DNA of 12,798 nt from Moraxellaceae bacterium (GTDB taxonomy: Bacteria; Pseudomonadota; Gammaproteobacteria; Pseudomonadales; UBA3067): contig NVTH01000088.1 of assembly GCA_002401525.1 (NCBI GenBank), forward strand, positions 682 to 13,479, in the 5' to 3' direction. Of this stretch, positions 509 to 12,798 are shown in pieces (position 1 is the first letter of the stretch; each line of letters begins with the position of its first letter). The position numbers and the translations under genes were made by a program. Below the pieces are notes generated by a model. That model was not told the origin of the DNA. It ran no database searches and saw nothing but the letters and a program-made list of their open reading frames with translations.

Positions 509-630
509 TTCTAACGCCTGCTTCTGGCGCATACCGAATTATACCGTTTAATACGGCTGATGGGCATTCGGTTATACTTCTCTAAAACGAAGCCAGCGTA
601 CGGTATATCGCTAACAAGCAATTGTTAGAT
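509..630 (-). other. attC: integron attC-type recombination site 1 (vapBC cassette)
   Basis: Read on the minus strand, the site starts with R'' ATCTAAC (630-624) followed by AAT and ends with GGC plus R' GTTAGAA (515-509). This is the usual attC polarity. The R boxes are complementary, and an inner TGCTT (519-523) pairs with AAGCA (616-620). A further imperfect arm pairs ATACCGAAT near 531 with ATTCGGTTAT near 566. The 122 bp length falls in the range of long Vibrio-type repeats. It begins 10 bp after the vapC stop, as expected for a cassette. The R'' variable bases match the predicted first bases of the same cassette at 1347. Confidence 0.8.
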
Positions 631-640
631 GAGATCTATG

Positions 641-1036
641 TTAGTTGAACCAGTTTTCAATTTTTAGTTTTGGAACTCTTTCGAATTCCTTTGTATTGCT
701 TGTTACTAAAATGCCTTGATGGGATAAGGCTGTCCCAGCGATTAGTAAATCATACGCTCCAATTGGGGTTCCTTTTTTTTCCAACTTTGCTCGTACAGAA
801 GCAGAATGTTGGGCTTCGTCTGCACCGAAAGATAGAATTGATACCAGAGAGCACAATCCTTTTAGCTGTTGCAGTCTTTTCTTGGGGGAATTCGATTTAG
901 CTATTCCGTATTCAAGTTCATATAAGACCACAGAAGGGATCGCGATCTCCTGCGGGGAAACCGACAACAACCTTGTAGGCACATTGCCCATACCTTTGAA
1001 GAAATAGATTAATGTATTAGTGTCAAGGACATACAT
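641..1036 (-). CDS. vapC: VapC-family PIN-domain toxin
   Basis: This is a 131-residue PIN-domain endoribonuclease, the toxin of a type II toxin-antitoxin pair; VapC proteins cleave tRNA or rRNA when freed from VapB. The PIN acidic residues are visible: Asp in MYVLDTN near the N-terminus, Glu in YELEYG near residue 41, and Asp in GAYDLLIAGTA near residue 96. The C-terminal VTSNTKEFERVP motif is typical of the family. I choose the ATG at 1036, which overlaps the antitoxin stop (TGATG), over a TTG one codon upstream. The stop lies 10 bp before attC site 1, so the pair is carried as a mobile integron cassette. Confidence 0.92.
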   Translation of the reverse strand: MYVLDTNTLIYFFKGMGNVPTRLLSVSPQEIAIPSVVLYELEYGIAKSNSPKKRLQQLKGLCSLVSILSFGADEAQHSASVRAKLEKKGTPIGAYDLLIAGTALSHQGILVTSNTKEFERVPKLKIENWFN

Positions 1037-1266
1037 CAAAGCTCTTCCCTGGCTGAATCTTTGCCAATTTTTCCCCTAATATCACCAATATCCGGGAAAT
1101 CGCCCCAAGCCCCATTTAGATTGATGATTGACTGGGGCCATTCAGTAGCCACTTCTTCCTTAATAAGTCTTGCGATCCACTTACTCTTTGATAAATGGGC
1201 AGATTTTGCCGCATCAACCATTTTTTTCTCAACTTCATCTTCAAGATAGATAGTAACTTGACCCAC
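1036..1266 (-). CDS. vapB: VapB-like ribbon-helix-helix antitoxin
   Basis: This 76-residue antitoxin precedes vapC and shares one base with its start, so the two are translationally coupled. From the GTG at 1266 the protein opens MGQVTIYLEDEVEKKM, the usual beta-strand plus helix start of ribbon-helix-helix DNA-binding antitoxins. The acidic and hydrophobic C-terminal half (WGDFPDIGDI) would wrap the toxin. The GTG at 1266 is preferred to the GTG at 1275 because GAGG (1278-1275) lies 8 bases ahead of it and the family usually starts with MGQVTIY. It should neutralise VapC and repress the promoter at 1296-1323. Confidence 0.88.
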   Translation of the reverse strand: MGQVTIYLEDEVEKKMVDAAKSAHLSKSKWIARLIKEEVATEWPQSIINLNGAWGDFPDIGDIRGKIGKDSAREEL

Positions 1267-1285
1267 AATAATCACCTCATTAAAG

Positions 1286-1341: not shown

Positions 1342-1434
1342 ATCTAACGCTTGGTGAGTGGGCAGTGTTGCTGCGAAGCCGCACTTTTAGCTGTCCAGCC
1401 AGCTTGCTGGCGTGCATTGCACGTATTGTTAGAA
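1342..1434 (-). other. attC: integron attC-type recombination site 2
   Basis: On the minus strand the site runs from R'' TTCTAAC (1434-1428), followed by AAT, to AAGC plus R' GTTAGAT (1348-1342). The 93 bp length is normal. It lies 39 bp downstream of the decayed gene that ends at 1474. Pairing inside the R boxes is weaker than in sites 1 and 3. Two local hairpins are visible, CGTGCA-T-TGCACG (1411-1423) and GCCAGC-TT-GCTGGC (1398-1411), so the fold is not one clean long stem. It marks the start of the vapBC cassette, whose first bases TTAGAT pair exactly with R'' of site 1. Confidence 0.68.
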
Positions 1435-1473
1435 GGCTCTACACCCAATTTTTTTACGAACATTCTGTAAATT

Positions 1474-1868
1474 CTATTTTGGTATTTTTTTAAGGATATC
1501 TGCAGTGATGTTTCCATACTCTTCTCTCATTACAGTAAACTCCTCGGAATTCGCTGTTGGTAGATGCCACATGACATAGCGGCAATGTATAAGCCCGGTG
1601 TTGGAGAATTTTGTGGATTATTGTAAAGAGTTACACGCCAGATATCCCGTTTTACCAGCTTGCCAAGATCCCCCCCAAAGTAATCAGATTCTTTACTTTT
1701 CCATACAGGAAATTCAGTAATATCTTTCATGCCCGAACCAAGTATGTCATACGCCTTTTTAAATTCCCCGGACTCCTTGGCTAATAAAAATTCTTCAGTA
1801 CGTTTCTTGGCGGTAGACTTAATGTTAGCGACCCTCTCTGGCTTGTTCGCCAATCCAGTAATTGTCAC
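1474..1868 (-). pseudogene. decayed small hypothetical gene, DUF4019-like, frameshifted
   Basis: One frame from a GTG at 1868 reads ANIKSTAKKRTEEFL to TPGLYIAA, then runs into unrelated sequence and stops at 1530. The continuation lies in another frame: VMWHLPTANSEEFTVMREEY, ending in a stop at 1474. The break is at about 1576-1577. The overall pattern (an alpha-helical start with KAYDIL, a WRVTLYNNP strand, PGLYIAA, then EEFTVMREEYGNIT) recalls DUF4019 proteins from memory. Those normally start with a signal peptide and have extra residues at the break, so a short out-of-frame deletion is likely. The 5' end also appears lost, since a TAG precedes the GTG directly. Its attC site at 1342-1434 marks it as a former cassette gene. 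Confidence 0.6.
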
Positions 1869-2007
1869 CTATACTGAATCTTTGCAATGCATTGATGTCA
1901 TCATTTGCTTGCATGCGCCGGCCTTTACTAAATTCATTGTCCACAATCTTTTGTTCATTACGCGCAAAACGCCAGTCAGAGAATCCATGTTTTACAGCGA
2001 AACTCGC
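1825..2007 (-). other. possible coding remnant, 60 codons without a start
   Basis: A stop-to-stop minus-strand frame contains protein-like sequence, HGFSDWRFARNEQKIVDNEF followed by SKGRRMQANDDINALQRFS, with no convincing start codon. It overlaps the 5' part of the decayed gene and ends at the glycan cluster start. It may be a leftover of DNA cut when the cluster arrived, or chance. I do not recognise a family. Confidence 0.2.
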
Positions 2008-2009
2008 CT

Positions 2010-3509
2010 ATGTTTAACCCCGAACAAAAACGTGTCACTGACGAAGCTCCACTGCCCACAGAAAAGCCATTGTTAAATATGCAGCAGGCGACGCAGGCGA
2101 TGACTCTCGCCTTTGTGCGAATCAATAAGGCCCACGACAAAAATACCCGTCAAAAGGACATTTCTCCTAGGGACATTAAAATAATTTTCGATGGGATAGC
2201 GCTTTATTTCCCCAACAATCGTCCAATTATTTACAAAAAGTTCGTCCCCGATCTTCTTAAGTATTACAAATACTTTTTGTTACATATCACTGATTTCGAA
2301 TTCATGATGGAGCTGCATGATACCGTACATACGATTATCTGGAACTACCAAGATGACTACATTCAATCTCAAATTGATATTAGCGAGAATATTGAGAAAT
2401 ACGCAATTAGGTGGTATCAAGCGCTTTGTAAAGAAAACAAAATTGAACCCATCAACGTAGACAACAACAAAACTGACAGTAAGACCATCGTTTACCTTCT
2501 AAAGCATGCCAGTATTTCTGCCTCCTACGCCTGCTCTAAACTCATTTATTCTTGTTTGCACGGACACTCCTCGAATCGAAATATTGTCGTATATATACAC
2601 GGTGGATCCGAAATTGAATTTATTGACTCTCTAAGTCATAAGGTTACCTTCAAACAGTTTTCTGGCACCAGGGACAGTACATTTCGTAAAATACGAAACG
2701 AAATCATGATCGACAAGCCTTACATGGTGATCTCTGAATTAAAACTATCGCTTATCGCTGCCCTGTTCAGCGCCCGCATCGCGCCCAAACAAGTGTATTG
2801 GTCGATGGGCTTTTCGGCTATCTCCTGGGCTGATGAATACGTTTTGCTTACCTCTGATTATCACGTAAAACATTTACTTCAGCTGTCTGGTAAAAAATGC
2901 ATTGAAATGCCTTATCGATTGCATCGCACTCTACTCGCACCAGAAGAGAACAAAGCGAACACTAAAGAAATTCGACGTCAGTTAAACGTTTCGCCAGACC
3001 AAATGTTAATCGGCTATTTAGGGCGCATGGAGAAAGTCAATGATGAATACCTCGACCTTATATGCACTTTATTGTGGAATAATAAGATTAAATATTTTTG
3101 TGCCGGGCCGGGAGACGTCAATAGAATCGAAAATCATCTAAAAAGTCGCGCACCCGAAGGCCAGTACACTGTTTCTACCTCGATTAATCCTCATGAATAC
3201 GGTTACGCGTTTGATTTATTCATTGAAACCTTTCCCATGGGCACCGGCTTGTCTGCAATCGAAGTAATGGCAAAAGGAATTCCTGTCGTTTATCTAAAAA
3301 CGAAATCCCAAAAAGGCATGCAGGAAACTACACGTGTACCCTCGTTAGGAGCGGAGAACACTGATGAATTAATCGGAATTATTCTGGCACTTTTATCAAA
3401 ACCACAGCTTTATAAGGAAGCCTCAAAGGCATGCAAAAATATTGTCAAAAATATGTCTCGATGCGAAGACGCAGCGGCGATCATTGAATCTATTGCTGTG
3501 AATGCTTAA
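2010..3509 (+). CDS. GT-B fold glycosyltransferase with a large helical N-terminal region
   Basis: This is a 499-residue cytosolic protein with no signal peptide or membrane segment. The C-terminal half looks like a GT-B sugar-nucleotide-binding domain: IGYLGRMEKVNDEYL near residue 335, FCAGPGD near 365, and around 404-426 an ETFPMGTGLSAIEVMAKGIP motif followed by VV. This resembles the donor-binding loop (G, S/T, E, G-P-V) of GT4, GT41 and HMW1C-type enzymes. Residues 1-180 are predicted mainly helical and match no family I know. As first gene of the cluster it probably transfers the sugar made by the following enzymes, perhaps to protein, lipid or polysaccharide. The ATG at 2010 lacks a clear ribosome site; later ATGs at 2079 and 2100 are no better. 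Confidence 0.72.
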   Translation: MFNPEQKRVTDEAPLPTEKPLLNMQQATQAMTLAFVRINKAHDKNTRQKDISPRDIKIIFDGIALYFPNNRPIIYKKFVPDLLKYYKYFLLHITDFEFMMELHDTVHTIIWNYQDDYIQSQIDISENIEKYAIRWYQALCKENKIEPINVDNNKTDSKTIVYLLKHASISASYACSKLIYSCLHGHSSNRNIVVYIHGGSEIEFIDSLSHKVTFKQFSGTRDSTFRKIRNEIMIDKPYMVISELKLSLIAALFSARIAPKQVYWSMGFSAISWADEYVLLTSDYHVKHLLQLSGKKCIEMPYRLHRTLLAPEENKANTKEIRRQLNVSPDQMLIGYLGRMEKVNDEYLDLICTLLWNNKIKYFCAGPGDVNRIENHLKSRAPEGQYTVSTSINPHEYGYAFDLFIETFPMGTGLSAIEVMAKGIPVVYLKTKSQKGMQETTRVPSLGAENTDELIGIILALLSKPQLYKEASKACKNIVKNMSRCEDAAAIIESIAVNA

Positions 3510-3522
3510 TCGGTAAACGACC

Positions 3523-4692
3523 ATGCAGTTTATTAATCTTGATCGGCAGTATAAAAATATTAAGAAAGAAATTCAGCACGCTATCAATACGGTGTTGGAG
3601 CACGGCCAATACATTTTGGGGCCTGAAGTTGATGAGCTGGAAATTGAATTATCTCGGAGAACTAAAAGCAAACATGTCATCGGGGTTAGCTCCGGTTCAG
3701 ATGCCCTTCTAATTGCCTTGCTGGCCCTTGATATACGCCCAGGTGACGAAGTGATTACCACCCCCTTTTCTTTTATCGCAACAGCAGAAATGATTTCGGT
3801 GCTCGGGGCCAAACCCGTTTATGCGGACGTAGAGTCAGACACATTCAACCTTAATCCTCAAAATATTGAGCCTCTCATTACTAAAAACACCAAAGCCATT
3901 GTGGCAGTCTCAATTTTTGGCCAATGCGCCAATATGGACCAGATTAATGCGATTGCAGAAGAATATAATTTAACTGTTATCGAAGACGCTGCACAAAGTT
4001 TTGGCGCAACCTACAAAGGCCGGTCGTCCTGCGCACTCACCCAAATCGCCATCACCTCGTTTTATCCCTCCAAACCTTTGGGCGCATACGGTGATGGTGG
4101 GGCATGCTTCACTCGCTGTGACGAGTTAGCAGAGAGGATGCGTAAAATAAGAATCCACGGCCAAGATCAACCTTACCTGCATTCTCGACTTGGCATTAAC
4201 GGCAGGCTGGACACCATTCAAGCTGCCATTTTGTTAACCAAATTGAAAGTATTGACGCTAGATTTAGAAAAGCGGCGACAAGCGGCAAATTATTATACAC
4301 AACAACTCAATAATGCCGGCTTCGCCGAAACACCAAGGATCGAGAAACACAATACTAGCACTTACGCTCAATACACCGTGCTAGTTAAAAATAGACAGGC
4401 AGTACAGCAAATACTTAACACTAAGGGCATTCCAAGTGCAGTATTTTACCCCGTTCCGCTAAACCGACAACCGGCGACCCATAACGATTCCACGCCTTGT
4501 CCAAATTCAGACCGCCTGTCCGAACACGTGTTAAGCCTGCCCCTATGCGCCTATATGACAAAAGAAGAACAAGATCATGTCATAAATCACTTTATTGAGG
4601 CCATCTCAGAGACCCAAAAAACAAAGGAGCCGTCATGCTCGCTGAATCCTACTCACACACCACAGCACAAATCGATGCAGGCGCCCTTATAG
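3523..4692 (+). CDS. DegT/DnrJ/EryC1 sugar-nucleotide 3-aminotransferase, WbpE/GnnB-like
   Basis: This 389-residue PLP enzyme closely follows WbpE of Pseudomonas aeruginosa, which aminates a UDP-3-keto-2-acetamido sugar with glutamate. Visible features are HGQYILGPEVDELE near residue 27, the VIEDAAQSFGA motif with the PLP-pyridine Asp155, the Schiff-base lysine K184 in SFYPSKPLGAYGDGG, and the C-terminal AVFYPVPLNRQP motif. It should work directly after the GnnA-like dehydrogenase three genes downstream, forming a 3-amino sugar nucleotide. It starts 13 bp after the glycosyltransferase. Oddly, about 25 extra residues past the usual WbpE end run 58 bp into the next gene. Confidence 0.9.
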   Translation: MQFINLDRQYKNIKKEIQHAINTVLEHGQYILGPEVDELEIELSRRTKSKHVIGVSSGSDALLIALLALDIRPGDEVITTPFSFIATAEMISVLGAKPVYADVESDTFNLNPQNIEPLITKNTKAIVAVSIFGQCANMDQINAIAEEYNLTVIEDAAQSFGATYKGRSSCALTQIAITSFYPSKPLGAYGDGGACFTRCDELAERMRKIRIHGQDQPYLHSRLGINGRLDTIQAAILLTKLKVLTLDLEKRRQAANYYTQQLNNAGFAETPRIEKHNTSTYAQYTVLVKNRQAVQQILNTKGIPSAVFYPVPLNRQPATHNDSTPCPNSDRLSEHVLSLPLCAYMTKEEQDHVINHFIEAISETQKTKEPSCSLNPTHTPQHKSMQAPL

Positions 4693-5135
4693 GGGATCAG
4701 TGCCAGCTATGGATCAACGTCCAAGTCCGAGAAGGCGCTGAAATAGGGCGCGGATGCATATTATCCAAAGACGTCTATATTGATAAGAACGTTACCATCG
4801 GAAATCATTGCAAGATACAAAATAGTGTTTCGGTATATCAAGGGGTTACGCTAGAAGACGATGTCTTTGTGGGCCCCAACGCTTGTTTTACTAACGATAA
4901 AGTACCTAGGGCTTTTAACGCCGACTGGCAAATCAGCCCCACATTAGTCAAAAAAGGAAGTAGCATCGGCGCAAACGCGACCATTATCTGCGGCGTCACC
5001 ATAGGCGAGTACGCCATGATTGCGGCGGGAAGCGTGGTTACCAAAGACGTCGCGCCCTTCACGTTAGTGATGGGCAATCCGGCGCGCTATGTAGCCCATA
5101 TTGATAAGCTAGGCAACAAAGTTACCAACGGCTAA
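4635..5135 (+). CDS. left-handed beta-helix N-acetyltransferase, WbpD-like
   Basis: This 166-residue hexapeptide-repeat acyltransferase probably acetylates the 3-amino group made by the preceding aminotransferase, giving a UDP-2,3-diacetamido sugar. Repeated LIVG-x4 turns fill residues 12-150 (IGDQCQLW, IGRGCIL, IGNHCKIQNSVSVY, LEDDVFVGPNACFTND, IGANATIICGVTIGEY). The KIQNSVSVY and TLVKKGSSIGANATI stretches align well with WbpD from memory. It is slightly shorter than WbpD because the C-terminal extension is missing. The ATG at 4635 is firmly set by AAAGGAG at 4623-4629, even though it lies inside the end of the previous gene. The next gene starts 2 bp after the stop. Confidence 0.9.
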   Translation: MLAESYSHTTAQIDAGALIGDQCQLWINVQVREGAEIGRGCILSKDVYIDKNVTIGNHCKIQNSVSVYQGVTLEDDVFVGPNACFTNDKVPRAFNADWQISPTLVKKGSSIGANATIICGVTIGEYAMIAAGSVVTKDVAPFTLVMGNPARYVAHIDKLGNKVTNG

Positions 5136-5137
5136 CT

Positions 5138-6106
5138 ATGCGACAGAATACACCAAAATTAATTAAAGTTGGCTTAATTGGTGTGGGTAAAATGGGTGAA
5201 AACCACCTGCGCATACTGTCGATGTTAAAAAACATTTCCGTTGAATTTATCTACGACATCGATAAAGAAAAAGCCGCTTACTTAGCAGAGAAGTATGCAG
5301 TCAGTGCCACGGTCGACATAGAACAAAGCCTGTCCAAGGTGGACGCCGTTGCCATTTGTTCACCAACCCATATGCACTACAAACACCTGATGTTAGTCAG
5401 TCAGTTTGTCAGTCACATTTTTGTTGAAAAGCCATTAACCGATTCTTTGGCGACTTCGGAAAAAGTAATAAGCCTTGCTAAAGAAAGATGCCTTACTATT
5501 CAGGTAGGGTTTATTGAGCGTTTTAATCCAGCAATACAAGCGTTGAATAGGATATTAAAAAACGGCATTAACGTGCTTAATATTGATTTTGAAAGGACCA
5601 ATAGGCTTAGCGATCGAATTACTGACATTGATGTGATTTATGATCTGATGATACACGACATCGATTTAGCGCTCTATTTAAACGGCGACATTGCAAACAT
5701 CACCGCCAACGGTATCATTAGGAACAACATGATTGCCTTTGCCACTGCCAATTTCATCCACAAAAATGGCACGCTTTCACGAATCCTTGCCAGCCGAATT
5801 ACTGAGAAAAAATTTCGTCATATTCGCGTCACCTGTGAAAATCTATTTATTGATTGCGAGCTATTACGAAAAGAAATTATTATCAATAGGCAATCTAAAA
5901 CAGAATCGGGTGTCGGCCAACACATTAGTATCGCCAATTTACAGGAAACCGTCGTAGTGCCGCCGCAAGAAGCTTTGCTTGATGAACTCACTACTTTTTT
6001 CCATAAAAGCGTGGATGCCAACGTGCAAGTACCTGACGAAATCGATGGGCTTAATGCGATTAGAGTGTGTGACCAGATCAAAGACATTATTTGGAGTAAT
6101 CATTGA
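5138..6106 (+). CDS. Gfo/Idh/MocA sugar-nucleotide 3-dehydrogenase, GnnA-like
   Basis: This 322-residue NAD(P)-dependent oxidoreductase opens with the Rossmann motif VGLIGVGKMGENHLR (residues 11-25). It carries the family EKP motif (97-99), QVGFIERFNPA (122-132) and DVIYDLMIHDIDLAL (165-179), with catalytic-site His173. The last two motifs are typical of GnnA-type UDP-GlcNAc 3-dehydrogenases rather than WbpB. It would oxidise C3 of UDP-GlcNAc or a relative, the substrate then being aminated by the WbpE/GnnB-like enzyme at 3523-4692. Its stop overlaps the next gene's start. GnnA with GnnB is known from 2,3-diamino lipid A synthesis. Confidence 0.87.
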   Translation: MRQNTPKLIKVGLIGVGKMGENHLRILSMLKNISVEFIYDIDKEKAAYLAEKYAVSATVDIEQSLSKVDAVAICSPTHMHYKHLMLVSQFVSHIFVEKPLTDSLATSEKVISLAKERCLTIQVGFIERFNPAIQALNRILKNGINVLNIDFERTNRLSDRITDIDVIYDLMIHDIDLALYLNGDIANITANGIIRNNMIAFATANFIHKNGTLSRILASRITEKKFRHIRVTCENLFIDCELLRKEIIINRQSKTESGVGQHISIANLQETVVVPPQEALLDELTTFFHKSVDANVQVPDEIDGLNAIRVCDQIKDIIWSNH

Positions 6107-7074
6107 GAGCCCCCCTCGCCAGTAAGGCCATACTCGTTACCGGCGGAGCTGGTTTTATTGGTAGCCATTTAGTGGACCGACTAATAACCGAGGGGGCGAC
6201 ACAAGTTGTCGTCATTGACAACCTGTTTTTAGGAAGTGAAGACAACTTAAACGACGCCTTGAATAAAGGTCTTTATTTTCATAATGATGATGCCGTATTC
6301 AGCAGTTCACTGGATTACATTTTTAAACGTTATAAAATCGACATTGTTTTTAATTGCGCCACCAAGGCATTAAATTACTCCTTCATTAATCCAAAAAATG
6401 CCTTTGATACCAATGTAGACATTACACTCAATTTGTTGGAGCACCAACGGCAGGGATCATTTGAAACCCTTTGCCAACTCTCAACCTCTGAGGTTTATGG
6501 TACCGCAGTGTATGAACCGATGGATGAGCAACACCCCAGAAACCCGACGACAAGCTATGCCGCAGGCAAAGCCGCCGCAGACCTTGCCGTAGAAAGTTAT
6601 GTCCGCATGTTTGATCTCGACAGTTTTATTGTTAGGCCTTTTAATAACTACGGACCAAGGCAAAATTACAAAGGTGTTTTGGCGGGGCTGATTCCAACCA
6701 CAATACGAAAAATACTGAACGGTCAGCCACCTGAACTACAGGGCAATGGCAGGCAAAGCCGGGATTTTATTTACGTGGACGACACAATCGACGCAGTGAT
6801 TAATCTTTATAGCAAACTACCTTCCGGCGAATCCGTCAATATTTCCACCGACAATACCATTACAATTCGGGATGTAATCGATCAAACATGCCAGCTCATG
6901 GGCTACACGGGCGAGATTCTAAACACACCGGCAAGAGCATCCGATGTGTTTTGCCACACCGCTTGCAACAAAAAAGTTCGCTCATTAATAGACTATCGTT
7001 TAACCCCGTTTGAGCACGGTTTAGTAGAAACCGTTGAGTGGTATAAAAAACACATCAGCCGCGAGTCATCGTAG
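6103..7074 (+). CDS. extended SDR sugar-nucleotide dehydratase/decarboxylase/epimerase
   Basis: This 323-residue NAD-dependent enzyme has TGGAGFIGSHL (13-23), STSEVYG (127-133) and the catalytic pair Tyr152 and Lys156 in SYAAGK. RPFNNYGPRQNYKG and SRDFIYVDDT follow, as in 4,6-dehydratases and UDP-glucuronate decarboxylases. Serine-Glu replaces the Asp-Glu of RmlB, as in ArnA, UDP-xylose synthases and LegB-like dehydratases, so the exact reaction is open. It most likely makes a 4-keto sugar for the following aminotransferase. It starts at TTG 6103, the only suitable in-frame start, with GGAG at 6093-6096 and a 4-base overlap (TTGA) with the previous stop. Confidence 0.85.
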   Translation: MRAPLASKAILVTGGAGFIGSHLVDRLITEGATQVVVIDNLFLGSEDNLNDALNKGLYFHNDDAVFSSSLDYIFKRYKIDIVFNCATKALNYSFINPKNAFDTNVDITLNLLEHQRQGSFETLCQLSTSEVYGTAVYEPMDEQHPRNPTTSYAAGKAAADLAVESYVRMFDLDSFIVRPFNNYGPRQNYKGVLAGLIPTTIRKILNGQPPELQGNGRQSRDFIYVDDTIDAVINLYSKLPSGESVNISTDNTITIRDVIDQTCQLMGYTGEILNTPARASDVFCHTACNKKVRSLIDYRLTPFEHGLVETVEWYKKHISRESS

Positions 7075-8165
7075 TGGAACGAATCCCCATTATAAGGCCC
7101 TACATACAATACGACGACATTGCCCAAGACATGGAGGCTATATTCAACTCCGGCATTTTGACAAAGGGCAAGCATGGGCTTGCTTTTAGAGAATCCTTTG
7201 CTGATTATACCGGCGCCCAATTTGTTTCGCTCACCACCTCGGCAACCACCGCTTTATCACTGGCGCTTAAAATATATGGGGTAGAAAAAGGCGATGAAGT
7301 CGCCGTCGCTGATTTTTCTTTTCCAGCCTCGGTCAACGTAATTGAAGACATAGGAGCCAAACCAATATTTATTGATGTGGATCCACACACTTTCAATATG
7401 GATCCACAACGTTTAATTAGTCATATTACCCGGCACACCAAAGCCGTTATATTTGTCGATAGTTTTGGCAATGCAAGCGGCCTAAGCGAAATCAAACGTA
7501 TTTGCGAACAACACAAACTGCCGTTAATTGAGGACGCCGCGTGTGCAATTGGTAGCTCAGAAAACAACAAGCGCTGTGGCAGCATCGCAGACATTGCATG
7601 CTTTAGCTTCCACCCTAGAAAGTTATTAACCACGGGGGAAGGCGGCGCCATCACTACCAACCACCGGGATATCGCTAATAGAATAGAGATTAAACTCAAT
7701 CATGGGGCAATATTAGATGCCGAAAGAAAATTGGATTTCGTCGATTTTGGTTACAATTATCGGATGACTGAAATGCAAGCGCTAATGGGCATCTCTCAGC
7801 TGCGCAAACTTGACGCAATAATTGAGGACCGTAGGCGTATAAAAGAAAAATACGTTCGCGCTTTAAAACCCTTGGGGTTCTACGCCCAAGCCTGCGCCCC
7901 GAATACGGAGCACAACGTCCAGTCTGTTGTCTTTTGTGTTCCAGAAGGCGTCGAGCGTAACGGACTCATTCAATACCTGGTATCCCACAATATTGAATCG
8001 ACACTCGGTACTTACAGCCTTAGCAATTGTTCTTTTTATAAACATAAATATCAAAAACCACAAAAGACCTCCTTAATATTGGAGGAAAATACCATCACGC
8101 TGCCATGCTATGAGGATGTAAATGTTGACAGGGTCATTAATGTCATCAAATTATTTATTAATTAG
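7074..8165 (+). CDS. DegT/DnrJ/EryC1 aminotransferase, second copy, probably acting on a 4-keto sugar
   Basis: This 363-residue PLP enzyme is distinct from the one at 3523-4692. PLP-binding Asp154 lies in LIEDAACAIG, and the Schiff-base lysine is K183 in SFHPRKLLTTGEGG. That last motif fits C4 aminotransferases of the perosamine/Qui4N/EpsN type better than WbpE. It probably aminates the keto product of the preceding SDR. The GTG start at 7074 shares one base with the previous TAG stop, a tight coupling. The substrate assignment is inference from neighbours and motif style. A 117 bp gap follows, the first large gap in the cluster. Confidence 0.85.
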   Translation: MERIPIIRPYIQYDDIAQDMEAIFNSGILTKGKHGLAFRESFADYTGAQFVSLTTSATTALSLALKIYGVEKGDEVAVADFSFPASVNVIEDIGAKPIFIDVDPHTFNMDPQRLISHITRHTKAVIFVDSFGNASGLSEIKRICEQHKLPLIEDAACAIGSSENNKRCGSIADIACFSFHPRKLLTTGEGGAITTNHRDIANRIEIKLNHGAILDAERKLDFVDFGYNYRMTEMQALMGISQLRKLDAIIEDRRRIKEKYVRALKPLGFYAQACAPNTEHNVQSVVFCVPEGVERNGLIQYLVSHNIESTLGTYSLSNCSFYKHKYQKPQKTSLILEENTITLPCYEDVNVDRVINVIKLFIN

Positions 8166-8282
8166 ACGTCGTCGAATTTAGTGGACTAATCAACTTAAGC
8201 GCTGGCGAAACGATAAAATCATGTGGCAGGCGCTGCATTAACTCACGGGTAAAAAGTATCGAAGCGCAAAGGAGGCTCTCTA
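8166..8282 (+). repeat. spacer with repeat copy A and ribosome site
   Basis: This gap before the first formyltransferase holds TGGCGAAACGATAAAATC followed by ATGT at 8203-8224, nearly identical to a copy in the next spacer (9233-9253). AGCGC and GCGCT arms flank it. It ends with a strong AAAGGAGG ribosome site (8268-8275), 7 bp before the ATG. Confidence 0.55.
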
Positions 8283-9224
8283 ATGAATAAGATCAATCGG
8301 GTTCTCTTTATTGGCAGTAAACAATTAGGGCTTCGAATTTTAAATGAGCTCTATTTACTTTCCCCCAATAAGTTGATTGGGGTAATAACCCTCAATGACT
8401 TTCGCGATACGCGAAGTGTGTTCGCTAAGTTTAAAGATTTTTCGCGGCAGACGGAAATAGACATTCACGTAGTGGAAAGCCAGCGTGCATCCGAAGCACA
8501 AATCCAGGCCTTAAGGCCTGATCTATGTATTGTCGTTGGCTGGTATTGGCTCTTTAGTGACGCCTTATTAGACACCGTTCCATTTGGTTTTGTCGGTTTA
8601 CATAACTCATTACTACCACAATATCGCGGCGGATCACCGCTAGTTTGGGCGATCATAAATAATGAAAAGGAAGTAGGCTGCAGTTATTTTTCTCTCAGTC
8701 GAGAAATGGACGCAGGGGATATTTGGGCCCAAGAGAGTGTAAGCGTAGACATCAACGAGAATATTTCTGATTTGCTTGAAAAATTGGAAGATCGTTCAGT
8801 GAATGCGCTGCACGAATGTTATCCGCGCCTATTGGACGGCACCATGACGCCCGTTACGCAAGACCATGCGCTTGCGACCTATTGCGCTCAACGACGCCCA
8901 AGTGACGGGAATATAGATTGGAATAAAACCGCACTAGAAGTACACAACTTTATTCGGGCCCAATCAGCGCCGTACCCAGGCGCGTTTACCTATTATAAAG
9001 ATCACAAGTTAACCGTATGGAAAGCCCGCTGTTTTCATAGGCCTTATTACGGAATACCAGGGCAAGTGGTTCACATTTCCAAGTCTGGTGTGTCTATTAT
9101 TTGCGGCGATCATCAGGCGATTATACTAGAATGGGTAGAAACCTCAGGGCACAGGGCGCACGCAAACCAAATAATTCAAACCCTTAAGGTACGTATGTCT
9201 GACGTTGTAACAAACGATGCATGA
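8283..9224 (+). CDS. formyltransferase-family protein, Fmt/ArnA-like, with altered triad
   Basis: This 313-residue protein has the Fmt layout: an N-terminal Rossmann domain, the loop LHNSLLPQYRGGSPLVW (106-122), EMDAGDIWAQ (141-150), and a C-terminal domain with AQRRPSDGNIDW and IRAQSAPYPGAF. Such enzymes pass formyl from N10-formyltetrahydrofolate to amino sugars or Met-tRNA. The invariant His107 and Asp143 are present. The usual Asn two residues before the His is Gly105 (VGLHNS instead of N-x-H), so activity or chemistry may differ. It probably acts on the amino group placed by the aminotransferase upstream. The start is set by AAAGGAGG 7 bp ahead. Spacers on both sides share a repeat, so it may be an inserted module. 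Confidence 0.85.
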   Translation: MNKINRVLFIGSKQLGLRILNELYLLSPNKLIGVITLNDFRDTRSVFAKFKDFSRQTEIDIHVVESQRASEAQIQALRPDLCIVVGWYWLFSDALLDTVPFGFVGLHNSLLPQYRGGSPLVWAIINNEKEVGCSYFSLSREMDAGDIWAQESVSVDINENISDLLEKLEDRSVNALHECYPRLLDGTMTPVTQDHALATYCAQRRPSDGNIDWNKTALEVHNFIRAQSAPYPGAFTYYKDHKLTVWKARCFHRPYYGIPGQVVHISKSGVSIICGDHQAIILEWVETSGHRAHANQIIQTLKVRMSDVVTNDA

Positions 9225-9336
9225 ACACCACGTGGCGAACCGATAAAACATGTCGGTGGGGTAATCAGGTTGCCAAACTATTTGGGTTACCAATAGACCA
9301 GTAGCAAGCGCTGAAAGGTGGAGTATAGATAGATAA
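9225..9336 (+). repeat. spacer with repeat copy B and small hairpins
   Basis: The gap between formyltransferase and deacetylase carries TGGCGAACCGATAAAACATG plus T at 9233-9253, matching copy A with one substitution and one missing base. ACCGA pairs with TCGGT around it. A second hairpin, CCAAA-CTA-TTTGG, lies near 9272-9284. AAGCGC followed by AAAGG near the end also resembles the first spacer. Confidence 0.55.
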
Positions 9337-10044
9337 ATGACCTATAAATTTCACTTAACCTTTGACATAGATTGGGCTCCCGATGACTCGATAGAAAAAT
9401 GCCTGACGCTGTTGGCGAAGAGTGCTGTAAAAGCAACCTTCTTTACCACTCATGAAACCGATATGAATAAAGAGATTGTGGTGCAGGGGCATGAGCTTGG
9501 CATACATCCGAATTTTTTGCCTGGCGGTTCTCATGGTCAGTCCACCCATGAGATTATAGAATCATGTTTGGAGTGGGCGCCAAACGCTCGCTATATGAGA
9601 ACCCACGCACTAGTACAATCCACCCCGTTATTGTGTGATATATTTTCAACCTTTACTCAGCTAACAACGGATGTCTCCTTATTGATGCACGGAGCGAAAT
9701 ACGTCCAACGATGCGAATTTAAATTCGAGGGGGTTTGTTTCGAACGCATACTCTATAACTGGGAGGACGACGCAGAATTTTATAATCAACGATTTGGAGC
9801 GCAGGACACCCATTTCTTTGGGCCCCTTACCATTTTTGATTTTCATCCAATCCATGTCCACCTAAACTCCAATAACGTAAAGAACTACACTCGACTTAAG
9901 GACCACTTCATTCAACGCGCCTTGTCGGAACTTCGCAGCGTAGACATAGAACCTTACGTAAACCCGAATGAGGGCGCGGGTACGTTTCTTCAATCCATCC
10001 TTTGTTCGAACGCGGAATCAATCCAGCTTGGTGCAGTGAAATGA
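9337..10044 (+). CDS. NodB/CE4-fold polysaccharide deacetylase, WbmS-like
   Basis: This 235-residue cytosolic protein lacks a signal peptide, so it probably acts on a sugar nucleotide or lipid-linked intermediate rather than cell wall. CE4-type motifs are visible: FDIDWAPD with Asp10 and Asp12, GHELGIHPN with His52 and His57 as likely metal ligands, RTHAL (Arg88) and IFDFHPIHVHLN with His170, His173 and His175. This short form recalls the WbmS-like group found in O-antigen loci. Its stop overlaps the next formyltransferase start (ATGA), which suggests removal of an acetyl group followed by formylation. The ribosome site is weak: GGAG at 9320-9323 is 13 bp from the ATG. The substrate is unknown. 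Confidence 0.75.
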   Translation: MTYKFHLTFDIDWAPDDSIEKCLTLLAKSAVKATFFTTHETDMNKEIVVQGHELGIHPNFLPGGSHGQSTHEIIESCLEWAPNARYMRTHALVQSTPLLCDIFSTFTQLTTDVSLLMHGAKYVQRCEFKFEGVCFERILYNWEDDAEFYNQRFGAQDTHFFGPLTIFDFHPIHVHLNSNNVKNYTRLKDHFIQRALSELRSVDIEPYVNPNEGAGTFLQSILCSNAESIQLGAVK

Positions 10045-10964
10045 ACGTTGGTTTTATGGGCCGCACCCGAATGCTCCTTGATACCATTAATATCATCCGG
10101 CATGATGATACACATCAGATCGCCTTTATTTGGACCTCTAAATCTGAGCCTTACTACAATTGCCATGAAGACGAATTTCAACACGTTGCACAACGCCTAA
10201 ATTGCCCCTTTATCTATTCCTCAAATATCGATGGTATAGACAAAGGCATTGATCTTTCAAAAGTAGATCTAGTCATTTCAATAAATTTTGTGAATATACT
10301 TTCCGCCACCTTTCTAAATCAATTCCAGTTCGGCGTACTCAATGCGCATGCTGGCGATTTACCTCGCTATAAAGGCAACGCATGCCCTAACTGGGCAATA
10401 CTTAATGACGAAAACTCGATTAGTCTATCAATACATCAAATGAGCGCTGAGCTTGATTCAGGGCCGATTTACACAACACGCATCTTCCCTTTAAACGATA
10501 ATACCTACATCGGAGATGTGTACAATTGGCTTGGCCTTGAGGTTCCACGAGGATTCCTCGATGTAATTAATAGTATACAAAAAGGGGTCTCGCCGACTCC
10601 GCAAAAAGACGTCCGCTCACTTAGGACTTTTCCTCGAAAAGCCGAAGATGCGGAAATTGATTGGTGCCAAGGAATTGAGTCTATCCATCGTTTAATTCGG
10701 GCTTCGTCGAGACCGTTTGACGGCGCCTACTGCCACCTCAACGGTACAATCGACAATAGAGTCACTGTATTTAAAGCGCGGGTAATTGAGCTTCCTTATG
10801 ATTTTTGCGCCATTAACGGACAAATACTGGAACGACATAAAGATTCTTTTGTAGTCGCCAGCGGTAACAGTGCTCTAGAAGTATTCGACTTTAAGCTCAA
10901 TGAATTAACCCAGACTGAGAGTTTAAAAAAAATTACCGCTTCGCTAAGGAATCGGTTAACGTAA
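10041..10964 (+). CDS. sugar N-formyltransferase, ArnA/Fmt-like, complete triad
   Basis: This 307-residue enzyme should transfer formyl from N10-formyltetrahydrofolate to an amino sugar nucleotide. The full triad is visible as Asn101 and His103 (LNAHAGDLPRYKG) and Asp139 (AELDSGPIY), with positions almost identical to ArnA N102, H104 and D140. A C-terminal Fmt-like domain follows (EDAEIDW, IRASSRPFDGAY). I choose the ATG at 10041 because it forms an ATGA overlap with the deacetylase stop; an ATG at 10002 would add 13 unlikely residues. It is divergent from the first formyltransferase, so the two are not a recent duplication. It is the last gene of the cluster. Confidence 0.88.
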   Translation: MNVGFMGRTRMLLDTINIIRHDDTHQIAFIWTSKSEPYYNCHEDEFQHVAQRLNCPFIYSSNIDGIDKGIDLSKVDLVISINFVNILSATFLNQFQFGVLNAHAGDLPRYKGNACPNWAILNDENSISLSIHQMSAELDSGPIYTTRIFPLNDNTYIGDVYNWLGLEVPRGFLDVINSIQKGVSPTPQKDVRSLRTFPRKAEDAEIDWCQGIESIHRLIRASSRPFDGAYCHLNGTIDNRVTVFKARVIELPYDFCAINGQILERHKDSFVVASGNSALEVFDFKLNELTQTESLKKITASLRNRLT

Positions 10965-10968
10965 CGTA

Positions 10969-11040
10969 TTAAGAATAATCGATTACATTCTCAGAGGTAG
11001 TCTCGTTTCTTGAACGGTGACTACATGGACCTATTCTTAA
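10969..11040. repeat. nested inverted repeat after the glycan cluster
   Basis: TTAAGAATA (10969-10977) and TATTCTTAA (11032-11040) are perfect 9 bp complements. Inside lies a hairpin, GTAGTC (10997-11002) with GACTAC (11019-11024), whose loop contains CGTT and AACG as an inner stem. No T-run follows the hairpin, so it is not a standard terminator. It may be a transcription end, a mobile element end or an attC relic. The rest of 10965-11091 shows no gene. Confidence 0.5.
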
Positions 11041-11091
11041 AATTGTCGGCATTTAATTATTCTACATTAATGATGATGAGGCACCAAAAGA

Positions 11092-11163
11092 AGTTAACGT
11101 TCGCATAAGGAGCGCTCCGCTTTTTGCACGTCCCAGTGAGTAGAGCGAACGAACTTGTTAAGC
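11092..11163 (-). other. attC: integron attC-type recombination site 3
   Basis: On the minus strand, R'' GCTTAAC (11163-11157) is followed by AAGTTC, then L'' GTTCGC. The other end is GCGAAC directly joined to R' GTTAACT (11098-11092). The L boxes GTTCGC and GCGAAC pair perfectly, with the unpaired spacer on the R'' side as in real attC sites. GGAGCGCTCC forms an inner palindrome. The length is 72 bp. The stop codon of the 163-residue gene lies inside R'', typical of cassette genes. R' deviates from GTTRRRY at one base. Confidence 0.75.
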
Positions 11164-11649
11164 AATTTCTGCTGCTGAAATACAATTAACAATATTAAAG
11201 CCTGCGATGATTAAGTACTTTGAACTTTCATATTTAAGATCATGAAACCCCGATTCGAGCATTTCCTTGTAAACGTAAGCTAACAACGTTTTCTCCTCAT
11301 GAGATTCTATATACTGCTGTATAGCTGTTAGCTCACTACTGGAAGAAAGGCCTTCGGTAAATTTTACGTGACCCACAAATCGTGACAATTCACGCTCTTG
11401 CTCGCTCTCTGTTACTTCTGCTATTTTTATCCCTGATTCATTCAGCGCAAGATATGCGACTAGAAGTATGTTTAGTAAAACCTCCATTTGCTCCAAAGTG
11501 CTTCCCATCTGGTTTAACACCACAACTGAACCTAGCAAATTTGGTTGCTCGACATAAATTTCATCCAGTATGACCTCTTTTTCCTTAAGGCTCATTCTCG
11601 AAGCTCTCTTTATAGCTTGTCTAAGAAAACTTCTATTTATTTTCGCCAT
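11158..11649 (-). CDS. unrecognised 163-residue cassette protein
   Basis: I do not recognise this family. The protein is soluble and predicted mainly helical. A basic N-terminus (MAKINRSFLRQAIKRASRMS) is followed by an acidic region, a hydrophobic helix near residues 50-70 (MEVLLNILLVAYLALNE), and a C-terminal hydrophobic stretch (YLIIAGFNIVNCISAAEIA). There is no signal peptide. The TAA stop falls inside attC site 3, so this is an integron cassette gene. It starts 36 bp after relE with only a weak ribosome site, so it might be read from the relBE promoter. A link to the toxin-antitoxin pair is possible but unsupported beyond position. Confidence 0.7.
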   Translation of the reverse strand: MAKINRSFLRQAIKRASRMSLKEKEVILDEIYVEQPNLLGSVVVLNQMGSTLEQMEVLLNILLVAYLALNESGIKIAEVTESEQERELSRFVGHVKFTEGLSSSSELTAIQQYIESHEEKTLLAYVYKEMLESGFHDLKYESSKYLIIAGFNIVNCISAAEIA

Positions 11650-12286: not shown

Positions 12287-12571
12287 ATGAACACGATCAT
12301 GAAATTAGACCAATTGACGACCATTGATGCCATAAATCGATTCCTTGAGGGCACGTGCGGCATTTCTAAAAATGTTCACATTCATACTTTACGCCACAGC
12401 TTCGCGACCAACTTGCTAGAAAATGGCATTAATCTTCGTTCCATTCAAACCCATCTCGGGCATGTAAGCCCCATTACCACCGCGATCTATACCAAAATGA
12501 CTGAGCAAGCCCAGCAAAACAGCGCCCTCATGATTAATGCTTTAGTCGATACCCTCGGCATTACGCCGTGA
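12287..12571 (+). pseudogene. truncated tyrosine recombinase of an IS91-type element, probably chimeric
   Basis: The 94-residue product keeps only the C-terminal catalytic part of a tyrosine recombinase: [15 protein letters not shown] with His and Arg, HLGH, and the nucleophile Tyr in AIYTKM. A full enzyme is about 300 residues and needs an upstream Arg that is absent here. The first residues, [19 protein letters not shown], do not look like recombinase; they recall the N-terminus of HTH/DDE integrase-like proteins linked to insertion elements. A fusion by deletion near 12357 is therefore likely. Its TGA shares a base with the transposase ATG (TGATG). Full-length IS91-type elements often carry such a gene in this place. 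Confidence 0.7.
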
Positions 12572-12798
12572 TGAATGCCATTATCGCCTGTCACACACGG
12601 GACCAAGGCCAACTTAAATATCAGTGCCCTGCTTGCGAGCAGCGTAAAGATTTCTATCGCTCTTGTGGCAATAGAGGTTGTCCTGCTTGCCAACACCTAA
12701 GCAATAATCAGTGGCTCGACCGCCAACGTCGTAAACTATTGCCCGTCGACTATTTCATGGTGACCTTTACTTTGCCCAGAGAATTACGCTCATTTGCT
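12571..12798 (+). CDS. IS91-family transposase (N-terminal part)
   Basis: The first 76 residues of a rolling-circle (Y2) transposase are visible; the rest lies beyond the right edge. A zinc-binding module is seen as CPACEQRKDFYRSC followed by CGNRGCPACQ, typical of the IS91 N-terminal domain, then QWLDRQRRKLLPVDYFMV and TFTLPRELRS, the start of the Y2 domain. The enzyme nicks DNA and moves the element by single-strand transfer, without target duplication. The ATG at 12571 overlaps the recombinase stop, so the two are coupled. Activity cannot be judged from this fragment. Confidence 0.92.
   Translation, partial: MNAIIACHTRDQGQLKYQCPACEQRKDFYRSCGNRGCPACQHLSNNQWLDRQRRKLLPVDYFMVTFTLPRELRSFA

Follow-up and report, generated by a model that had tools for sequence, protein, structure and literature searches.

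The usual picture of an attC array is a row of small cassettes with their genes on the sense strand. Where attC sites cluster but no integrase is present, the term used is CALIN (cluster of attC sites lacking an integrase), a definition made for IntegronFinder (PMC9024848), and arrays of this kind are described as mobilizable in trans (PMC12444791). Cassettes can also carry surface glycan functions: in Vibrio rotiferianus DAT722 they are reported to alter surface polysaccharide (PMC3590141, PMC3856429), and in V. vulnificus a cassette gene is reported to be needed for capsule (Smith and Siebeling 2003, as cited in PMC3590141 and PMC3856429). Here we analyze a locus of a Moraxellaceae bacterium (assembly GCA_002401525.1, contig NVTH01000088.1) in which a nine-gene glycan operon lies in opposite orientation inside a CALIN-like array. 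The window, by which we mean the whole 12,798-nucleotide stretch of DNA that was analyzed, corresponds to bases 682-13479 of a 13,479-base contig in a draft genome that comprises 3.37 Mb in 250 contigs and is 74% complete. In our assessment the operon is likely to be foreign DNA, not a cassette captured by the integron integrase (IntI), which has replaced sequence between two broken cassettes of a decaying attC array.

The elements on which this reading is built are given below in window coordinates, with scores from covariance model R1, described further on.

509..630 (630-509), minus strand: attC site 1 (21.2 bits, E-value 4e-4)
1342..1434 (1434-1342), minus strand: attC site 2 (42.9 bits, E-value 4.8e-10)
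1430..1866, minus strand: remnant of cassette B, a DUF4019-type gene, 5'-truncated, out of frame and with a stop; its 3' end lies inside the R'' of site 2
1850..2009, no strand: left junction interval, from the end of homology to the related protein P0003 to the first operon gene at 2010
10965..11026, no strand: right junction interval, from the stop of the last operon gene (g9) to the end of DUF4160 homology
11027..11097, minus strand: remnant of cassette A, a 45-nucleotide leader from the crossover and then the beginning of a DUF4160 gene, MPTILRIGP (11052-11027)
11092..11163 (11163-11092), minus strand: attC site 3 (11.1 bits, E-value 0.23)

One line of evidence comes from the two borders of the operon. 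On the right, the cassette expected after site 3 starts at 11097, and after 45 bases the sequence ATGCCGACAATTTTAAGAATAGGTCC (11052-11027) encodes MPTILRIGP, the first nine codons of a gene of the MPTILRIGPYRF type. A degenerate MPTILRIGP pattern is found in five of 369 genomes of the class, its own included (0 for a reversed-pattern control); the four other carriers all continue as PYRF, and all four are DUF4160 proteins according to Pfam (57-69 bits, cut-off 23). Homology of the window to the DUF4160 gene ends at 11027. On the left, the remnant is related to proteins P0002, P0003 and P0004, for two of which DUF4019 is annotated; the Pfam DUF4019 model reaches only an E-value of 0.011 on the remnant itself. 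Residues 7-88 of P0002 align in one frame and residues 99-150 in a different one, where a stop interrupts the aligned piece; the N-terminal part that P0003 possesses is missing from the remnant, and homology to P0003 ends at about 1850-1886. No match to P0003 was found on plasmids. Each border of the operon thus carries the broken end of a cassette, and the two cassettes are not the same.

It had originally been predicted, on the basis of the sequence of this stretch, that the glycan cluster was inserted into a cassette array or had replaced part of it. The DUF4160 start on the right and the 5' truncation of the DUF4019-type gene on the left support this claim, and since the remnants come from two different genes, replacement describes the event better than insertion does. 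We infer that the sites once formed a single array and that replacement, instead of simple insertion, took place. Under this model, the plus-strand operon would have come in as ordinary foreign DNA, leaving about 9.1 kb between the broken DUF4160 start that follows site 3 and the broken DUF4019-type 3' part that precedes site 2, and the rest of at least those two cassettes would have been lost. Entry by end joining, natural transformation or an insertion sequence (IS) is conceivable. The two junction intervals have no 8-mer in common, and no target duplication was seen. A 9-base direct repeat in the flanks (1801, 11004) was considered and set aside as near chance (42 of 2000 shuffles).

The correspondence between the R' and R'' core sites of consecutive cassettes provides a second line of evidence. 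The original prediction had read TTAACT after site 3 and TTCTAAC as the R'' of site 2, and both readings are correct. For the cassette running from site 2 to site 1, the cassette start matches the R'' of site 1 (ATCTAAC) at four of four variable bases, as expected of a whole cassette; the start that follows site 3 agrees with the R'' of site 2 at one of four. As a control, we analyzed 80 consecutive attC pairs of relatives, of which 57 showed a full four-base match and 8 matched at one base or fewer, compared with means of 4.4 and about 23 of 80, respectively, for shuffled partners. The control made use of 108 of 122 model matches and paired only neighbors 150-2,500 nucleotides apart; the matches omitted are the nine that score below 20.7 bits and a further five, namely two from locus L069, a single one from each of L039 and L006, and that at L065:9416-9500. 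One of the low pairs is a misread register. Because 8 of the 80 control pairs are as low, the mismatch is supporting evidence and not decisive. Together with the two different broken genes, it supports the earlier conclusion that the two ends do not belong to one cassette.

Model R1 was derived from 20 attC sites in arrays of related genomes, none of them from the window. In an attC site the R and L arms pair, with an unpaired base between them, and the structure input to the model consisted of the aligned sites with this pairing. The training sites were hand-picked from script candidates scored on arm pairing, and pairing counts are thus not independent evidence. In 23 stretches of sequence the model returned 122 matches at E-values up to 1, 20 of which are the training sites, with many of them in dense same-strand runs, and on control loci of other taxa (31 loci, 588 kb) it returned no match at E-values up to 10. 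The window was scanned in its entirety with filters off. The three attC-type sites of the original prediction, all pointing along the minus strand, were recovered to different degrees: the covariance model accepts sites 1 and 2, which lie 711 nucleotides apart, and leaves site 3 undecided. Between 1435 and 11091 there is no attC match above 8.9 bits with this model. At least 10 of the 144 other relatives contain sequence that resembles site 2, at up to 93%. The R'' of site 2, TTCTAAC, contains the phenylalanine-stop end of the DUF4019-type gene.

Despite its low score, site 3 is credible, since two relatives carry its core alongside other attC matches and since its R'' holds the stop of a cassette gene. 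Its core has blastn matches in at least 2 of 139 other relatives (G004 and G102), and the homologs score 18.4 bits (L077:3025-3106) and 33.6 bits (L078:10053-10128), respectively, with model R1, with further attC matches on both stretches; its R'', GCTTAAC, contains the TAA stop of a 163-amino acid open reading frame (ORF). We therefore consider site 3 to be a credible attC on sequence grounds, and the weakest part of the observation. A shifted register of its inner-arm pairing may be the cause of the low model score. When single-strand DNA folding is compared with shuffles, z-scores are -3.7 and -4.1 for site 1, and sites 2 and 3 are not set apart (-0.75 to -1.19). Of two palindrome scans, one found none of the three window sites and the other only site 1.

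Sites 1 and 2 provide the two or more attC sites that define a CALIN. No integron integrase scoring over the cut-off is encoded on the 13,479-base contig. Of 56 relatives, counting the own genome, 27 have an integrase over the cut-off; that of the own genome is encoded on another contig (C210) and covers model positions 26-314 of 315, being N-terminally short. We describe the array as decaying and CALIN-like, without an integrase on the contig; given the short contig, an integrase farther off is possible.

The plus-strand nine-gene operon that had been predicted between sites 2 and 3 is confirmed at 2010-10964, its genes being separated by short gaps or overlapping.

2010..3509, plus strand: g1, weak GT4-like glycosyltransferase, 499 amino acids (PF13692, E-value 1.9e-4, 22.2 bits, cut-off 27)
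3523..4692, plus strand: g2, DegT aminotransferase, WbpE-like (PF01041; WbpE chain 3nu7, E-value 2.5e-114)
4635..5135, plus strand: g3, hexapeptide acyltransferase (PF00132)
5138..6106, plus strand: g4, GFO/IDH oxidoreductase, nearest to UDP-GlcNAc 3-dehydrogenases (PF01408; NF040723, 148.5 bits, cut-off 450; 7bvj, E-value 1.5e-31)
6103..7074, plus strand: g5, SDR epimerase / 4,6-dehydratase (PF01370)
7074..8165, plus strand: g6, DegT aminotransferase, PseC/LegC/perosamine synthase-like (PF01041; NCBIfam matches under cut-offs)
8283..9224, plus strand: g7, Fmt/ArnA-like N-formyltransferase (PF00551, PF02911)
9337..10044, plus strand: g8, WbmS-like deacetylase (PF22537, E-value 2e-46, 158.8 bits, cut-off 27; 3hft WbmS, E-value 9.2e-30, residues 5-225)
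10041..10964, plus strand: g9, second formyltransferase (PF00551, PF02911)

From these family assignments, we infer that the operon encodes a pathway for one or two rare N-acyl or N-formyl amino sugars decorating a surface polysaccharide. Judging from families, g4 and g2 would oxidize and then aminate C3 of UDP-GlcNAc and g3 would acylate the product; g5, g6 and g7 would yield a 4-formamido sugar; g8, a predicted deacetylase, and g9 would swap an N-acetyl for an N-formyl group; and g1 would transfer the finished sugar. Of the components of a complete O-antigen or capsule locus, the operon has nucleotide-sugar enzymes and a glycosyltransferase (weakly, with g1 under the cut-off), and searches with Pfam and NCBIfam identify no flippase, polymerase or exporter among the nine proteins, so that it looks like a module adding a rare sugar to a polysaccharide built elsewhere. 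For g1, no relative but itself was found at an E-value of 1e-3 among 6,123 candidates in a large protein set, nor any PDB match at an E-value of 1, and a structure predicted from the single sequence, with no alignment, was unusable (mean predicted local distance difference test score of 40.7) and was set aside. P0005, listed on a contig of 13,352 bases, is the same protein as g1 and might represent a second assembly of the locus.

Relatives of g8, at most 48% identical, occur in 35 loci from several phyla. Of 34 loci, 14 have a relative of g9 immediately 3' of that of g8, across several phyla and with one archaeon among them (L082, L084, L086, L088, L090, L092, L093, L094, L098, L099, L107, L108, L110 and L113). 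This recurrent deacetylase-formyltransferase pair suggests an exchange of N-acetyl for N-formyl on a sugar. The nine-gene order is found in none of the 35 g8-relative loci (tblastn matches over 80 bits), and model R1 finds no attC match in the 31 of these 35 loci with related glycan genes that were tested. In the gaps flanking g7, at 8203-8224 and 9233-9253, there is a near-identical repeat of 21-22 nucleotides (TGGCGAAACGATAAAATCATGT / TGGCGAACCGATAAAACATGT). None of 2000 shuffles scores as high, and among 200 loci its 16-base core is present only in copies of the window contig; g7 may have been added as a unit.

The remaining features of the window include a chromosomal gene at the left end and, at the right, an IS91-family element cut by the contig end.

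1..485, minus strand: 5' part of a FAD-dependent (DAO) oxidoreductase gene with upstream bases (PF01266), the chromosomal flank of the array
641..1275, minus strand: VapC gene and 79-amino acid partner ORF, the cassette between sites 2 and 1 (PIN over the Pfam cut-off)
11158..11649, minus strand: cassette gene, 163 amino acids, no family
12287..12798: IS91-family element, a recombinase piece followed by the zinc-binding part of a transposase; the contig end cuts the element

Along the minus strand, going leftward, the order is a ParE-like toxin gene with a ribbon-helix-helix-like partner, the 163-amino acid cassette gene, site 3, the 71-base remnant, the operon (on the plus strand), the gene remnant, site 2, the VapC cassette, site 1 and the chromosomal oxidoreductase gene. 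VapC scores 135.4 bits with NCBIfam (cut-off 140), and neither Pfam nor NCBIfam provides a family match for its partner ORF. Relatives of the 163-amino acid gene at 36-39% are found on 5 plasmid records. An Rfam search of the window returned no match.

The oxidoreductase at the left end is 97% identical over 140 amino acids to that of G001, the one other genome listed for the genus. DNA homology to G001 (90.7%) stops at window position 485, 24 bases before site 1, and the G001 contig with the shared flank gene (12,159 bases) contains no attC match; the array is not seen there. In both the own genome and G001, attC matches are scattered over contigs, with at least 13 at E-values up to 1 on other contigs of G001. 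The DUF4019-type gene is represented in the 369 class genomes by the own copy and one distant 27% match (G158). Two further DUF4160 loci were observed. In L180 (G000:C73, 1082-1817), a DUF4160 fragment and a second small gene are accompanied by an attC match of 20.4 bits, with a group II intron close behind (RF02005); group IIC introns target attC sites. In L006 (G000:C210, 2709-3475), a plus-strand DUF4160 gene and a second small gene lie between two minus-strand attC matches (23.3 and 16.5 bits), on the contig that also encodes the N-terminally short integrase, and this unit is possibly an antisense cassette. The second small gene of both loci is presumably DUF2442-like. We asked whether the C73 fragment (model positions 34-65) could be the missing half of cassette A and rejected this, because on visual comparison the rest of it resembles the C210 copy and not the four counterparts.

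Four other explanations have to be weighed against replacement. The contig could be chimeric, with a glycan operon from a different contig or organism joined by the assembler to two pieces of array. The 250-contig draft and the N bases in the contig speak for this, as does the reported difficulty of assembling attC arrays (PMC9024848), yet we judge it unlikely: the junction intervals are unrepeated in the window save for one 12-mer, a blastn comparison of them with eleven stretches of the own genome and G001 yielded no more than short, weak matches, GC content is alike (0.386-0.436), the left end closely matches a same-genus genome, as noted above, and contamination of the genome is given as 1%. 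A giant cassette, with the antisense operon captured whole by IntI, would extend over 9,750 bases, between the crossovers of site 3 (11097) and site 2 (1348). It would have directly oriented attC-type sites at both ends and no internal match above 8.9 bits, and antisense cassette genes may occur, as with the C210 DUF4160 gene opposite to two attC matches. The original prediction considered a cassette of nearly 10 kb the less likely reading, and with a start that matches the R'' at one of four variable bases, a broken DUF4160 gene at its beginning and a broken DUF4019-type gene at its end, we also find it very unlikely. Its size argues in the same direction: the gap between sites 2 and 3 is 9,657 nucleotides, versus a median of 597 and a maximum of 3,871 for 85 gaps in the ten array loci of relatives (matches of at least 20.7 bits), none of which exceeds 4,000. 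A single cassette from site 3 to site 2 would have a start complementary to the R'', an intact gene region of its own and a size within this range, and all three are lacking.

One-ended transposition of the IS91 type, with the IS at 12287-12798 as its motor, could have moved the operon, together with the cassette genes to its right, into the cassette of the DUF4019-type gene. IS91 elements can mobilize DNA beside one end, and the transposase start at 12568 with a recombinase piece upstream is of this family. Three cassette-type genes and site 3, however, separate the IS from the operon, which it does not touch, and the right break at 11027 demands a second event; we regard this route as highly improbable. 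Lastly, the operon might be an older chromosomal locus with attC cassettes inserted at both sides, a possibility to which the dispersal of attC matches over contigs in the own genome and G001 lends some support. We give it almost no credence, since cassettes inserted by IntI would be whole, and both operon-facing ones are cut on the operon side; moreover, g8 is found in none of 55 other relatives, G001 included.

Replacement by foreign DNA remains the reading that we favor, and several observations weigh against it. Site 3 is not significant by model R1 alone and ties with a palindrome at 11278-11333 that lies inside a gene. The DUF4160 remnant is only nine codons long, and none of the four DUF4160 counterparts has an attC match nearby on its stretch, so that they identify the gene and not cassette travel of its type. 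P0002 (151 amino acids) starts close to the break of the window copy, and the 5' truncation of the DUF4019-type gene is based on P0003 (193 amino acids), which ends inside the domain. No second copy of the locus was found in the genomes compared, and neither was the empty site, or array without the cluster, that the original prediction proposed to look for in relatives. The fragmentation of the assembly counts on the same side.

If sites 2 and 3 are still functional, the locus could behave as a composite cassette in effect: IntI acting in trans could recombine them, releasing a 9,750-base circle with the whole pathway and one attC. We consider this unlikely. One large metagenome survey retains attC sites only if they lie at most 4,000 nucleotides from another (PMC7370490), and by that rule it would not link sites 2 and 3, which are farther apart. 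Were the bracket excisable, integrons could pass on pathways assembled in place, as a unit missed by surveys with such a limit. A bracket still able to recombine could let integrons carry surface-sugar pathways of several genes from place to place; one no longer able to do so would make the locus a clear case of an old array being overwritten. In either case, a broken cassette on each side of an operon offers a simple way to find further cases.

The locus can be compared with known systems at several levels. WbpD, WbpB, GnnA and GnnB are encoded by 3-amino sugar genes, and the operon resembles the WbpE/WbpD/WbpB- and GnnA/GnnB-type sets in that g2 is near WbpE, g4 is near the UDP-GlcNAc 3-dehydrogenase model and g3 is a hexapeptide acyltransferase; it differs in that NCBIfam matches fall under their curated cut-offs for g2 (25 of the 31 shown) and g4 (12 of 12 shown). 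The match of g8 to 3hft, which we take to be WbmS of Bordetella, relates it to an O-antigen deacetylase, although the gene content around g8 is different. Like a CALIN, the locus has two or more attC sites in the same orientation, cassette genes that include a toxin-antitoxin gene and no integrase over the cut-off on its short contig; unlike a CALIN, it is interrupted by a 9-kb operon in opposite orientation, with broken cassettes on both sides. Judging from titles and the beginnings of abstracts in the open-licence literature, we found no report of a cassette array that contains an inverted glycan operon of several genes. As in the Vibrio cases, surface glycan genes lie within an integron array; there the genes are carried on cassettes, and here the array holds a sugar pathway of several genes that, in our reading, is no cassette.

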